From: Calothrix anomala FACHB-343
GTDB lineage: Bacteria > Cyanobacteriota > Cyanobacteriia > Cyanobacteriales > Nostocaceae
Assembly (NCBI RefSeq): GCF_014696435.1
Contig: NZ_JACJQG010000037.1
Coordinates: forward strand, 24,736-88,735
Reading direction: 5' to 3'
Length of the DNA stretch: 64,000 nt
Position 1 is the first letter of the stretch. Every line of letters begins with the position of its first letter. A program made the translations under genes and the position numbers. Positions 51,992-57,302 of the stretch are shown piece after piece. The notes beneath the pieces were generated by a model that saw only the letters and a program-made list of their open reading frames with translations, was not told where the DNA came from and made no database searches.

Positions 51992-52807
51992 AATTTTAAA
52001 GCCGTATATTTGCTTGATTTAAATTTCAAAAAAATCACATACACCGTAGGGGTGGGGAAACCCCCATTGGTGTCAACTTAAGCTCAGAACCCTTCTCTAT
52101 CTCGTTTCCAGCCTCCGGCTGGAAATGCGTATTCGTGGGCTGCCGCCTCGTCTTCTAATAAATTGAGGCAGAGCCTCATAAATCTCAGCTCCCACGCAGA
52201 GCATGGGAGCTAGATGGAATGGGGTTTTACGTTAAGTTGACACGTATGGGAAACCCCACGCTTAATTGTGAGTGCGTTCGTCCTTGACGTTGCCGTAGGC
52301 ATCGCTCATCGGGTATTTTTGTATCAACAGGCGATCGCCCATAGTATAGTTGGAATAGAAATCAACAAAGCTGGTCTAAATTCTCTAGATTTAAGCTATG
52401 CTAAAATCAGTTATGCATTTTCTCTGTTAAGCAATCTAACATTAGGTTAATCTCTGTAAAGCCCTCGCAAGATAAATTGCCAATGCTAACCGAAAATCAA
52501 TGAAGCGCCAAGCTTGTCAAAGCAACAGCGCGGTGTTCTCCACAAATCATTGTCTCGGTTCAAGTTATAAAGCTAATCTCGGCTGAAATCCTCAAAGCCA
52601 GCCAAGACAGGTTTTATCGCAAAGGTAAGAACGCTCTAGGGCTAAGTTTTCATCTGCTAATAATCTGGCGTAATCCTGACTACCGTTCAATTCTGAGATT
52701 CTTGGTAAGTTTTACCAACCTCAGGTTAATTTTTGAAAAGTTTAGTTTATTTGATTATCTATATAGCCATAAAGTTATATAGGTAATTGAGAAGTTAGGA
52801 ATTGACT
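51992..52807. other. Spacer upstream of the low-oxygen tetrapyrrole cluster
   Basis: Contains a nested 174-bp element (52070-52243). The rest, including the region just upstream of the heme oxygenase gene where the promoter and any regulator site must lie, shows no gene; a short AT-rich -10-like stretch (tatatag) is at about 52759. Confidence 0.5.
52070..52243. repeat. 174-bp element with perfect 12-bp terminal inverted repeats, family F
   Basis: GTGTCAACTTAA ... TTAAGTTGACAC. The interior has three further hairpins (tccagcctccggctgga, gaggcagagcctc, agctcccacgcagagcatgg). The outer flanks ggggtggggaaacccc and tatgggaaaccccac resemble each other, so it may sit in an older element. Confidence 0.8.
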
Positions 52808-53560
52808 ATGAGTACCGATCTAGCAAGCAAGTTACGGGAAGGAACCAAACATTCCCATACAATGGCGGAAAATACAGCGTTTATGAAATGTTTCCTCAAA
52901 GGGATTGTAGAAAGAGAACCCTTTCGGAAACTCATTGCGAACTTGTATTTAGTTTATAGTGCCCTAGAAGAACAGCTTCAGCGTTATAGTACTCATCCTG
53001 TAGTCAGTTTGATTTATTTTCCCATATTGAACCGTAAAGCCAATTTAGAGAAAGACTTGGTTTTTTACTACGGTGAAAACTGGCGCGAGCAAATCTCAGC
53101 ACTAGAGGCAGGTAAAGTTTATGTAGAGCGAATTAATGAAGTCGCCAACACCGAACCTGCATTATTAGTTGCTCATGCTTATGTGCGCTACATGGGAGAT
53201 TTATCTGGCGGACAAAGTTTGAAAAAAATTATCCGTTCTGCTCTAGATTTACCAGCAAATGAAGGAACTGGACTTCATGAATTTGAGCAATTACCTTCAG
53301 TTGAAGCTATCAGAGCATTTAAAGGACAATATCGCGATGCTTTAAATGCATTACCTGTAGATGATGCTTTAGCGGAGAAAATCATCGCCGAAGCTAACTA
53401 TGCATTTGAACTCAATCGCAATGTTGTTCATGAATTAGAAGCAGATGTCAAAGCTGCTATTGGGGATCACGTTTTTGATTTGATTACCCGTCAAGATTTA
53501 CCCGGTAGCACCGAACGTTCACCTGGTAATAATGCAGTCAGACTCGTAGCGGCTGAATAA
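52808..53560 (+). CDS. ho: Heme oxygenase (biliverdin-forming)
   Basis: 250 aa from ATG 52808 (AGGA upstream); a TTG at 52802 is too close to the SD. Ferredoxin-dependent cleavage of heme to biliverdin IXa, the precursor of phycobilins. The proximal heme ligand is His17 in GTKHSHTMAEN and the distal helix is YMGDLSGGQSLKK. First gene of ho-hemN-chlE on one strand. In Synechocystis the second heme oxygenase gene ho2 sits next to hemN in a micro-oxic operon, so this is probably the low-oxygen isoform rather than the housekeeping HO1 (inference). Confidence 0.95.
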   Translation: MSTDLASKLREGTKHSHTMAENTAFMKCFLKGIVEREPFRKLIANLYLVYSALEEQLQRYSTHPVVSLIYFPILNRKANLEKDLVFYYGENWREQISALEAGKVYVERINEVANTEPALLVAHAYVRYMGDLSGGQSLKKIIRSALDLPANEGTGLHEFEQLPSVEAIRAFKGQYRDALNALPVDDALAEKIIAEANYAFELNRNVVHELEADVKAAIGDHVFDLITRQDLPGSTERSPGNNAVRLVAAE

Positions 53561-53602
53561 GCAGCAACCATGAAAATTACAATTTAGTTAAACTCCAGAT
53601 TT

Positions 53603-53814
53603 GGCGTTGCTGAATATGAGTATGAAATGCAAACATTAAATATTTCAAACTCTTATTCTCTCTAGTACCGCTACGCGAAAGTCAAAAGTCAAAAGTCAAA
53701 AAGTTAATATATTAAGGCTTGTGACTGTTTGAAATAGTAGCTTTATTTACGCCGTGTTGTACTAGCTCTGCGTCTAGCAAATAGTCCTAATTCATACTTA
53801 TTCGCAGCAACGCC
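53603..53814. repeat. 212-bp element with GGCGTTGCTG-type inverted ends
   Basis: Termini ggcgttgctgaatatgagta and, inverted, ggcgttgctgcgaataagta. The interior carries an aaagtca heptamer array. No coding capacity. It lies between ho and hemN. The remainder of 53561-54073 holds only the CCCCATG array at 54010. Confidence 0.75.
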
Positions 53815-54009
53815 TTGATTTTGTCTGAATTTTGTAAATCTTCCTCGTGTGGCTATCTTGACTCTACATATGAGATAACTGCACTCATAAAATACGACAA
53901 AAATTGTCTGTAAATAGCCTCAAATAGCTAAAATACCTAGCTATTTGACACAACTAATAATAGAAAAAAAGGCATATCAAAAGGATAAGGGATATCAATA
54001 ATAATTAAT

Positions 54010-54049
54010 CCCCAATGCCCCATGCCCCATGCCCCATGCCCCATGCCCA
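54010..54049. repeat. CCCCATG heptamer array in the hemN leader
   Basis: Five near-perfect tandem heptamers ending 25 nt before the hemN ATG, so within the untranslated leader or promoter. Confidence 0.9.
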
Positions 54050-54073
54050 AAATCATTTAAGGTTACTAGCATC

Positions 54074-55471
54074 ATGAAATTGGCGACGCAAACAGTAGAA
54101 TTCAACTCGGAGTTACTCAGAAAATACGACCAAGCTTTACCTAGATATACAAGTTATCCACCAGCAACAGAGTTAAAAGATAATTTTGGCGAGTTGGATT
54201 TACGGACAGCTATTGCAGTTGGTAATTATAAAAATACGCCCTTATCTCTTTATTTTCATATTCCTTTTTGTGAAACTGCTTGCTACTTTTGCGGTTGCAA
54301 TACAATTATTACCCAACGCAAGGAAATCGTCGATCCATATCTCAATTATGTAGCGCGAAATATTCGCCAGTTTTCTGACTTAATTTCTGACAAACGCCAA
54401 GTTCATCAACTCCATTGGGGAGGAGGAACGCCAAATTATTTAAATCAACATCAGGTAGAATTTCTCTGGAACAATATTAATCAAAACTTCCGCCTAGATG
54501 ACAATGCGGAAATCTCCATTGAAATTAATCCCAGATATGTTGATAAAAATTATATCTTTTTCCTCAAAAGCTTAGGCTTTAACCGAATTAGCTTTGGCAT
54601 TCAAGACTTTAACCCCCAAGTTCAAGAGTCAATTAATCGCGTCCAACCAGAATCTATGCTCTTCAATGTTATGGATTGGATTCGCGATGCAGGATTTGAA
54701 AGTGTGAATGTGGATTTAATTTATGGTTTACCTTATCAAAGCCTAGCTACTTTTAAAAATACAATTGCCAAAACTATCAAACTCGATCCCGATAGAGTAG
54801 CTGTATTTAACTTTGCTTATGTCCCCTGGATGAAGCCTGTACAAAGAAAGATTCCCCAGTCAGCATTACCTCCAGCTTCAGAAAAATTAGATATTCTGAA
54901 GATGACGATTGAAGAATTAACTGATAATGGTTATTGGTTTATTGGGATGGATCACTTTGCTAAACCCAATGATGAATTAACCATCGCGCAACAAGAAGGT
55001 AAACTGCACAGAAATTTCCAGGGATATACCACAAAACCTGAATCAGATTTATTTGGTTTTGGGATTACATCGATTAGTATGCTGCATGATGTTTACATCC
55101 AAAATATTAAGCAGCTAAAAAGCTATTATCAAGCAATTGATACAGGCAAAATGCCAATTGAAAAAGGCGTCAGTCTCAACCGCGATGATATTTTGCGGCG
55201 GACTGTAATTATGGAATTGATGTGTCAGTTCCGCCTGTCAATTGATGATGTGGAAGAAAAATATCATATAGCTTTTGATACGGATTTTAATGAATATTTT
55301 GCTAGAGAATTATCTGAGTTGCGATTGCTAGAAGCTGATGGCTTAATTCGGATGATACCCAATGGTATTGAAGTGACACCGAGCGGCAGATTACTAATTA
55401 GAAATATTGCCTCCATCTTTGACGCTCATACCAGACAGCGAAAAAATGCAGCTTTTTCTAAAGCAATTTAA
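54074..55471 (+). CDS. hemN: Oxygen-independent coproporphyrinogen III oxidase
   Basis: 465-aa radical SAM enzyme from ATG 54074 (MKLATQTVEFNSELLRKYDQ). The [4Fe-4S] motif is C66-X3-C70-X2-C73 (CETACYFC) with the HemN-typical following CNT. It decarboxylates coproporphyrinogen III without O2, replacing HemF under low oxygen. The upstream ATG at 54029 is inside the heptamer array and would only add repeat-encoded residues. Sits between ho and chlE. Confidence 0.94.
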   Translation: MKLATQTVEFNSELLRKYDQALPRYTSYPPATELKDNFGELDLRTAIAVGNYKNTPLSLYFHIPFCETACYFCGCNTIITQRKEIVDPYLNYVARNIRQFSDLISDKRQVHQLHWGGGTPNYLNQHQVEFLWNNINQNFRLDDNAEISIEINPRYVDKNYIFFLKSLGFNRISFGIQDFNPQVQESINRVQPESMLFNVMDWIRDAGFESVNVDLIYGLPYQSLATFKNTIAKTIKLDPDRVAVFNFAYVPWMKPVQRKIPQSALPPASEKLDILKMTIEELTDNGYWFIGMDHFAKPNDELTIAQQEGKLHRNFQGYTTKPESDLFGFGITSISMLHDVYIQNIKQLKSYYQAIDTGKMPIEKGVSLNRDDILRRTVIMELMCQFRLSIDDVEEKYHIAFDTDFNEYFARELSELRLLEADGLIRMIPNGIEVTPSGRLLIRNIASIFDAHTRQRKNAAFSKAI

Positions 55472-55480
55472 TTGCATTTG

Positions 55481-55513
55481 AAGGATGAAGTTGAAATTAA
55501 AAATTTCATCCTT
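55481..55513 (+). terminator. Hairpin after hemN
   Basis: aaggatgaa / ttcatcctt arms followed by attta; 9 bp after the hemN stop. Weak T tract, so partial termination or RNA 3'-end protection is possible. Confidence 0.5.
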
Positions 55514-55580
55514 ATTTATACCAATTGAACAAAATAACAGATTCAAACTTAGAAACAGGTTACCAATCTGTTTTTATTAA

Positions 55581-55610
55581 TTTTGAATTTTGAATTTTGA
55601 ATTTTGAATT
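55581..55610. repeat. TTTTGAA heptamer array
   Basis: Four units in the hemN-chlE spacer. A similar array is at 33157-33190. Confidence 0.85.
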
Positions 55611-55646
55611 GGTACCAGTCCTCTTTCAAGCAGCAGGAAAAAAACT

Positions 55647-57302
55647 ATGCGTATCATGATGATTCAGCCCAACTATCATTCAGGTGGTGCGGAAATTGCT
55701 GGAAATTGGCCACCTAGTTGGGTTCCTTATGTTGGTGGAGCTTTAAAACAAGCTGGCTTTACCGATATCCGGTTTGTTGATGCGATGACAGACTATATTC
55801 CTGATGATGTCTTAGCAGGAATTATCGCTCAACATCAACCAGATGTGGTGTTAGCAACGGCGATTACGCCGATGATTTATCAATCACAAATCACGCTACA
55901 AATTGTTAAGCAAGTTTGCCCCAATGCGAAGACAATTATGGGTGGGGTTCACCCTACCTATATGTACAATGAAGTGCTGCATGAAGCACCTTGGGTAGAT
56001 TATATTATTCGCGGTGAAGGTGAAGAGATTACAGTTAATTTACTACGCGCGATCGCAAATGGTACAGATGAGAGCGATCGCCGTAATATTTTAGGTATTG
56101 CCTTTCTGGAAGATGGTAAAGTCGTAGCTACACCAGCCCATCCCCCCATTGCTGACTTGGATACCCTCACCCCAGATTGGGATCTTTTAGACTGGAAGAA
56201 ATATATTTACACTCCTCTGAATGTGCGCGTAGCTGTACCCAACTATGCGAGAGGATGTCCATTTACTTGTCGTTTTTGTTCGCAATGGAAATTCTGGCGC
56301 AAATACCGTTCCGGTTCACCCAAGCGCTTTGTCGATGAAATTGAAATTTTGGTGAAAAAGCATAAGGTAGGCTTTTTCATTCTGGCTGATGAAGAACCCA
56401 CCATCAACAAACCCAAATTTATTGCGTTATGTAACGAATTAATCGAACGCAATTTAGGCGTATATTGGGGAATTAACACCCGCGTTACAGATATTTTGCG
56501 CGATGAAAAAGAATTACCCCTGTACCGCAAAGCTGGATTAGTTCACGTTTCTTTAGGTACAGAAGCAGCAGCTCAATTAAAGTTGAATTTATTCCGTAAA
56601 GAAACCACAATCGAACAGAATAAACGGGCGATTCAACTATTAAAACAAAATGGGATGGTTGCAGAAGCTCAATTTATTATGGGTTTAGAAAACGAAACCC
56701 CGGAGACAATTGAGCAAACCTATAAAATGGCGCTGGATTGGGAACCAGACATGGTGAACTGGAATATGTTCACACCTTGGCCATTTTCGGAATTGTTTCA
56801 GGAATTAGGCGATCGCGTGGAAGTGCGAGATTATTCTCAATATAACTTTGTCACGCCCATCATGAAGCCCACCGCAATGGAACGGGAAGAAGTTCTCAAA
56901 GGCGTGTTGCGGAACTACGCGCGGTTTTATATGCGCAAAACCCTTGAATATTGGTTTGTCAAAGATCCCTTCAAGCGCAAATATCTGTTAGGCTGCTTAA
57001 AGGCTTTTGCTCAAACTACCCTTAACAAACGCTTCTACAACCTCAAACGAGTGAAATATAAAGGACTGCATACCGAAATCGAGTTAGGTTTTGATAAGTC
57101 CAAAATTCTCACTGTTGAAGAAATCGCTAAACGCAAACAACAACATCCAGAATTATCAGCCGATGTGAATTTTACTGGCAATATCGGCGAAATTTCCGCT
57201 TGTGGCGCACCTAACGATGTGAGCGAGATTTCTGCTTGTGGCGCACCTAACGATTTAGAATATCATGGCGATCAAGAAGATGTTCCCAGCATGAAAATCT
57301 AA
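55647..57302 (+). CDS. chlE: Anaerobic Mg-protoporphyrin IX monomethyl ester oxidative cyclase
   Basis: 551 aa, B12-binding radical SAM protein of the BchE family. The N-terminus MRIMMIQPNYHSGGAEIAGN is close to purple-bacterial BchE. A cobalamin-binding fold spans about 1-140, and the radical SAM cluster is C204-X3-C208-X2-C211 (RGCPFTCRFCSQWKFW). Long blocks such as VGFFILADEEPTINKPKF and HVSLGTEAAAQLKL are BchE-specific. It forms the isocyclic ring of chlorophyll without O2, bypassing the O2-dependent AcsF. The C-terminus carries a 12-residue direct duplication (EISACGAPNDVS / EISACGAPNDLE). Third gene of ho-hemN-chlE. Confidence 0.93.
   Translation: MRIMMIQPNYHSGGAEIAGNWPPSWVPYVGGALKQAGFTDIRFVDAMTDYIPDDVLAGIIAQHQPDVVLATAITPMIYQSQITLQIVKQVCPNAKTIMGGVHPTYMYNEVLHEAPWVDYIIRGEGEEITVNLLRAIANGTDESDRRNILGIAFLEDGKVVATPAHPPIADLDTLTPDWDLLDWKKYIYTPLNVRVAVPNYARGCPFTCRFCSQWKFWRKYRSGSPKRFVDEIEILVKKHKVGFFILADEEPTINKPKFIALCNELIERNLGVYWGINTRVTDILRDEKELPLYRKAGLVHVSLGTEAAAQLKLNLFRKETTIEQNKRAIQLLKQNGMVAEAQFIMGLENETPETIEQTYKMALDWEPDMVNWNMFTPWPFSELFQELGDRVEVRDYSQYNFVTPIMKPTAMEREEVLKGVLRNYARFYMRKTLEYWFVKDPFKRKYLLGCLKAFAQTTLNKRFYNLKRVKYKGLHTEIELGFDKSKILTVEEIAKRKQQHPELSADVNFTGNIGEISACGAPNDVSEISACGAPNDLEYHGDQEDVPSMKI

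Follow-up and report, generated by a model that had tools for sequence, protein, structure and literature searches.

A ho2-hemN-chlE gene trio in Calothrix anomala FACHB-343 as a probable part of a micro-oxic tetrapyrrole regulon

Three genes for a heme oxygenase (ho2), an oxygen-independent coproporphyrinogen III oxidase (hemN) and an anaerobic-type cyclase (chlE) follow one another in the genome of Calothrix anomala FACHB-343, and we conclude that they are probably a split-off part of a micro-oxic tetrapyrrole regulon in a diazotroph. They were studied in a stretch of 64,000 nucleotides (the window) from contig C76 of the 9.24-Mb genome, which is assembled in 144 contigs. Two nifD genes scored above the cut-off in a profile search of this genome, in agreement with the nitrogen-fixing host implied in an earlier note on the same DNA. 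When O2 falls, HemN would take over coproporphyrinogen oxidation, ChlE, judging by its sequence, would carry out an O2-independent closure of the E ring, and HO2 would turn the scarce O2 to biliverdin production. The module would descend from an older cyanobacterial cluster of acsFII, sometimes hemF, ho2, hemN, chlE and often a desaturase gene. Since both parts of this cluster (the trio and an acsF-hemF part on contig C85) and a D1'-type psbA have one promoter dyad, we infer that they stand under one low-oxygen regulon.

The ho2-hemN-chlE genes

Family scores bore out the names that the earlier note had given to the three genes (heme oxygenase, HemN and a BchE-type cyclase), and an ORF check found their frames open at the following places, all on the plus strand.

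52808..53560, plus strand: ho2, heme oxygenase, low-oxygen isoform type (Pfam PF01126 Heme_oxygenase, 262.5 bits, cut-off 23)
54074..55471, plus strand: hemN, oxygen-independent coproporphyrinogen III oxidase (NCBIfam TIGR00538, 727.6 bits, cut-off 324.95)
55647..57302, plus strand: chlE, anaerobic-type Mg-protoporphyrin ester cyclase (NCBIfam BchE TIGR02026, 796.6 bits, cut-off 481.35; Pfam B12-binding and Radical_SAM)

The ATG of ho2 is at 52808, and the listed frame starts with a TTG 6 bases upstream. Its product showed 51% identity in an alignment with the second of the two heme oxygenases of the genome, encoded on contig C68. The hemN frame is open from an ATG at 54029, which sits within a CCCCATG repeat (54020-54050), and the ATG at 54074 (MKLATQTVEF) is of the start type seen in homologues. 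For these two reasons 54074 is probably the start of hemN; the gene named earlier stands, with a start that had probably been placed too far upstream.

Because the intergenic distances are about 513 bp (from ho2 to the hemN ATG at 54074) and 175 bp (from hemN to chlE), we infer rather than assert the co-transcription of ho2, hemN and chlE, and the 513-bp gap 5' of hemN may contain a second promoter. A generic scan for sigma-70 promoters and terminators gave no excess above shuffled sequence. The trio is not a chance arrangement, since the identical order recurs in other cyanobacteria. It was also found in Tolypothrix sp. FACHB-123 and Calothrix brevissima NIES-22, whose ChlE proteins are 100% identical (rounded) to that of the window.

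A promoter dyad before ho2, acsF and psbA

In an alignment of the ho2 upstream regions of related strains, three conserved blocks were observed.

52717..52728, plus strand: AACCTCAGGTTA, an imperfectly conserved palindrome upstream of ho2
52733..52745, plus strand: TTGAAAAGTTTAG block, conserved upstream of ho2
52759..52782, no strand assigned: dyad CTATATA-N10-TATATAG, containing the 19-base motif ATAACTTTATGGCTATATA on the minus strand, conserved before ho2 in cluster-bearing Nostocales

A whole-genome scan for the dyad as ATAACTTWATGGCTATRTA with at most 2 mismatches returned 3 matches in 9.24 Mb and 0 for the reversed control. The three sites lie before ho2, before the acsF of contig C85 and before a psbA gene on contig C63, the last being independent of the motif definition. 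This psbA encodes A80, L158 and A286, which we take to be hallmark residues of the low-oxygen D1' (the literature search found no paper for these residue names), whereas the other two full-length D1 genes read encode G, F and T and have no upstream dyad. A second hemN-acsF pair of the genome, on contig C59, is without the motif. A regulator that binds the dyad would be expected.

A relaxed dyad (1 mismatch), whose letters were picked after part of the loci had been viewed, gave 38 matches in 60 genomes of the family versus 16 for the reversed control. The matches fell in only 26 of the 60 genomes, leaving 34 without one, and 19 of the 31 loci read were beside ho, acsF, hemF, hemN, chlE or psbA (16 of 28 without the host genome). 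Forty column-shuffled motifs had a mean of 0.175 matches in the target promoters and a maximum of 2, and the real motif had 16 of 25. A still looser form gave 13 matches in the host genome versus 7 in the control. One further exact site of the loose dyad, the fourth, on contig C141, had no low-oxygen gene recognisable by eye adjoining it, nor was one recognised by eye at eight one-mismatch places (L220-L224 and L226-L228, L225 being L224 read on the opposite strand). Among the collected loci, the dyad with at most 2 mismatches stood upstream of 7 of 52 ho frames, 1 of 23 C85-type acsF, 1 of 6 C85-type hemF and 6 of 125 frames with BchE as best match, paralogues and fragments included.

The dyad might instead, though this is unlikely, belong to the core promoter as an AT-rich element (a sigma-factor signature or an extended -10), in which case the three genes share a promoter class only. 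The dyad is indeed AT-rich, its distance to the start codons downstream is 26 to 64 bases, at psbA it continues into TATAAT, and the control rose above zero when the motif was relaxed. However, its orientation at ho2 is opposite to that at acsF and psbA, which would be odd for a -10 box, and 3 genome matches at 2 mismatches are far below the number of promoters.

Comparison with the ChlR regulon

The proposed low-oxygen regulon has a counterpart in the literature. In Synechocystis the targets of ChlR are chlAII, ho2, hemN and psbA1 according to the available part of PMC4500134, and the target set of Synechocystis PCC 6803 and Synechococcus PCC 7002 (chlAII, ho2, hemN and a low-oxygen psbA) is the same as the one proposed here, as far as the accessible text of PMC4500134 and PMC13421787 goes. 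A cis-element common to ho2, acsFII and the low-oxygen psbA was likewise found in the host, but the element differs: the host dyad reads ATAACT-N4-RGYTAT, whereas the ChlR box is given as TTMCC-N3/4-GGWAA in the part of PMC13421787 available. The low-oxygen role suggested in the earlier note is thus favoured by analogy with the regulon as described in PMC4500134 and by the common promoter dyad, and induction of the trio at low O2 would be expected.

The published ChlR box had no exact match in the whole window, where only a partial ACC-TCA-GGT core was found upstream of ho2, and this absence ruled the box out as the element of the trio. Among the upstream stretches scanned, three had an exact box: L087, where it separates a ChlR-like gene from acsF, and L089 and L142, where it precedes a desaturase frame. 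One query of the host genome, which a distant regulator could escape, found no 4-Cys ChlR, and the two HxlR homologues (46% and 40%) are both without Cys-X4-6-Cys-Pro. The 1-Cys HxlR proteins encoded on contigs C90 and C46 would be the first to consider as candidate regulators that bind the dyad. The HxlR-type genes beside acsF-ho2-hemN-chlE in four other loci (L086, L087, L089 and L096) encode Cys-X4-Cys-Pro and C-terminal cysteines, which are described for 4-Cys ChlR in PMC4500134; the 1-Cys type ChlR of Nostocales is left unexplained in the available part of that paper. The dyad was not found as a cis-element in the literature consulted.

Distribution of chlE and of the gene order

Of the 388 genomes sampled from the class, 46 had a TIGR02026 match, and the true chlE type was present in 41. 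Counting chlE by TIGR02026 alone was rejected, because the model over-calls: proteins of about 32% identity exceed its cut-off, and in 5 of the 46 positive genomes such proteins, on a very long branch of the tree, are the sole matches. In a scripted count, ho and hemN were upstream of chlE on the same strand at 19 of the 41 class-sample chlE loci, and acsF was no more than 7 kb away in 14 of these 19 full-cluster loci. One more locus (L075) shows the order by eye beyond the distance limits of the script and is outside the 19 of 41. The two locus sets behind the counts overlap in genomes, so that the counts are not independent. Six other genomes of the same family in the class sample have chlE alone, and examples of named Nostocales that retain the trio are Nostoc linckia FACHB-104, Nostoc carneum and Nostoc sp. 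T09.

According to the available parts of PMC4500134, Cyanothece PCC 7425 has bchE just downstream of chlAII-ho2-hemN, bchE is listed in two of 37 species, and Table 1 gives hemN and ho2 as clustered, with chlAII outside that cluster, in Nostoc punctiforme and two Anabaena. The Cyanothece PCC 7425 cluster is like the window in having ho2, hemN and an anaerobic cyclase downstream, but it contains chlAII, whereas the acsF orthologue of the window genome is by hemF on another contig. Nostoc punctiforme, Anabaena PCC 7120 and A. variabilis resemble the window in the clustering of ho2 and hemN without chlAII; however, Table 1 gives no bchE for them, whereas chlE follows hemN in the window. The ho2-hemN-chlE arrangement is therefore already known, being printed for Cyanothece PCC 7425 and recurring at almost half of the chlE loci above, and the novelty seen in it earlier has to be given up.

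Since chlE is absent from most sampled cyanobacteria and broken copies occur among relatives (L096, L064 and L167), the gene might be regarded as a dispensable relic that is redundant with the three AcsF of the genome. This is improbable: the frame in the window is intact with the catalytic cysteines retained, the protein matches that of Tolypothrix FACHB-123 at 100% (rounded), and the promoter elements are conserved between species.

Location of acsF

The earlier note had named acsF, hemF, ho1 and ChlR as genes to look for in the genome. Profile searches found three AcsF and two each of HemF, HemN and HO. No acsF lies beside the trio, all three being on other contigs; ho2 and hemN are adjacent on one strand, and chlAII (acsFII) is not in the cluster.

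The acsF on contig C85 is divergent from hemF and a desaturase-like frame. In a tree, the C85 AcsF grouped with 23 AcsF rows from chlE-flanking loci (support 99/96), and by this grouping it is the orthologue of the AcsF that flanks the cluster elsewhere. In three loci acsF, hemF, ho2 and chlE are all together (L100, L131 and L159; L100 and L145 probably come from one genome, as do L051 and L159). The older cluster thus appears to have been split in the host lineage, with acsFII and hemF now on another contig. It had been proposed that chlE replaces chlAII; because three AcsF remain and the C85 orthologue carries the promoter dyad of ho2, separation and not replacement is the better description.

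A fully O2-free pathway to chlorophyll, heme and bilin, with chlE in place of chlAII, has only a slender chance of being correct. HemN and ChlE both belong to O2-independent families, and no acsF adjoins the trio in the host genome. Against this, heme oxygenase consumes O2, and therefore bilin synthesis cannot run anoxically; moreover, three acsF persist, the cluster-type acsF has the same dyad, and elsewhere the cluster includes acsF as well as chlE at most full-cluster loci (14 of 19). The expectation that synthesis would continue without O2 fails at the bilin step, and because heme oxygenase needs O2 we favour a micro-oxic regulon over an anoxic pathway.

ChlE as a predicted cyclase

By score, domains and tree, the gene at 55647 is a true ChlE/BchE. 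The radical-SAM CxxxCxxC cysteines of the window protein (C204, C208 and C211) were present in all 47 sequences of an alignment. A structure alignment left out L179 and L181, because the stretches taken from them contain stop codons. In a 75-row tree (without L059), the window joined the 37 named cyanobacterial rows in one BchE/ChlE clade with support 99/100, separate from Chloroflexota, heliobacteria and proteobacteria, and within it stood with Tolypothrix FACHB-123 and Calothrix brevissima NIES-22. This topology speaks for a single clade of cyanobacterial ChlE rather than for recent transfers at scattered points. A position outside the ChlE/BchE clade had been set beforehand as the point that would speak against the naming of the gene; it was placed inside. 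Although TIGR02026 also passes its cut-off for the distant proteins described above, it is hardly credible that the gene encodes another cobalamin/radical-SAM enzyme and no cyclase, given an identity of about 69-75% to BchE of phototrophs, including one in a purple photosynthesis gene cluster.

Cyanobacterial ChlE has been shown to be active, in that it complemented a bchE mutant (Yamanashi et al. 2015, as cited in PMC4944227), and the verified proteins in the available part of PMC4944227 are two from Cyanothece, PCC 7425 and PCC 7822. The window ChlE is likewise a cyanobacterial BchE orthologue, and its activity is predicted.

The predicted model of the window ChlE (mean pLDDT 76.9) was nearest to the solved cobalamin radical-SAM enzymes AprD4, TsrM, MgmA, CysS and OxsB. 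Residues 506-551 are of low confidence and the tail is below 50, so that the model is uninformative on the conserved tail cysteine. The tail carries a short duplication.

57189..57254, plus strand: C-terminal tail of ChlE, EISACGAPND motif twice in tandem (read from the sequence)

The motif is single in most relatives of the window ChlE, and the CG motif of the tail was present in 88 of the 90 cyanobacterial rows read.

ChlE-receiver fusions in relatives

With a profile built in this analysis, a receiver-like C-terminal tail was detected in 30 of the 41 class-sample ChlE. The Pfam receiver model was above its cut-off in 8 of the 11 fused proteins scanned and below it in L095, L131 and L145; a LuxR-type DNA-binding domain is added in L130 and L131 (above the cut-off) and in L159 (below). 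The tail was present in 18 of 18 rows of one cyanobacterial ChlE clade and in 0 of 18 of the clade of the window, whose ChlE is, by this tree, from a sister clade without the receiver fusion. The phosphate-accepting aspartate of the receiver is seemingly lost in some fusions. A single 1193-codon frame at L080 holds HemN, ChlE and a receiver.

Tentatively, the fused ChlE may be a signalling protein, in which chlorophyll synthesis might be linked to transcription through phosphorylation or through the state of the oxygen-sensitive Fe-S/cobalamin core; in the unfused clade of the window, a dyad-binding regulator would do so. Nothing on ChlE/BchE fused to a receiver or response regulator was found in the literature searched, which leaves most subscription journals outside it.

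Significance

These results widen the known range of the anaerobic cyclase in cyanobacteria from 2 of 37 species, as listed in the available part of PMC4500134, to 41 of 388 sampled genomes. If functional, the ChlE-receiver fusions would be an enzyme and a signal-transduction protein in one chain. For the Nostocales, the dyad is a candidate cis-element that would join tetrapyrrole synthesis with photosystem II.

Fusions of ChlE with regulatory domains

A C-terminal response-regulator receiver was found fused to ChlE, the anaerobic-type Mg-protoporphyrin ester cyclase, in 30 of the 41 class-sample loci with a profile built in this analysis, and the Pfam receiver cut-off was passed by 8 of the 11 fused proteins scanned. 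Some fusions extend to a LuxR-type DNA-binding domain or to HemN, as listed below for collected loci of other genomes (coordinates within each locus).

L086 7998-10037, ChlE-receiver fusion (further examples in L079, L049, L101, L137 and others)
L130 4898-7117, a single frame joining ChlE to a receiver and a LuxR-type DNA-binding domain (GerE 36.1 bits, cut-off 23.5)
L131 8001-10270, the same arrangement in a single frame (GerE 26.9 bits, cut-off 23.5)
L080 7449-11030, HemN, ChlE and receiver in one open frame of 1193 aa

The GerE score of L159 was 19.6 bits, below the cut-off of 23.5.

ISACGAPND, a conserved tail motif of ChlE, is tandemly doubled in several Nostocales (window 57189-57254; L078, L108-L110). 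In Richelia intracellularis (L167 1414-3022), hemN adjoins a chlE broken into two frames of 107 and 439 aa, which reflects either decay or an assembly fault.

Annotation of bchE

Since cyanobacterial radical-SAM proteins only ~32% identical to ChlE (L056 to L063) exceed the TIGR02026 'BchE' cut-off, automatic bchE annotation over-calls the gene. A protein of 31% identity on an Allocoleopsis plasmid (L105) likewise carries this annotation.

Neighboring genes and the ChlR box

In L087 (13281-13666), a perfect match to the published ChlR box, TTACC-GCA-GGTAA, lies between a 4-Cys ChlR-like gene and acsF-ho2-hemN-chlE. The ChlR-like proteins are classed as HxlR in Pfam, whereas ChlR has been labeled MarR-type. 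A nitronate-monooxygenase-like gene is often located 3' of chlE in Leptolyngbya-like loci (L145, L147, L156); in L216, from the window's genus, a loosened form of the window's ho2 promoter dyad stands before a gene of this kind. On a Pseudanabaena plasmid (L101 8001-12561), chlE is ~1.4 kb from a psbA that encodes the D1'-type residues A80, L158 and A286.
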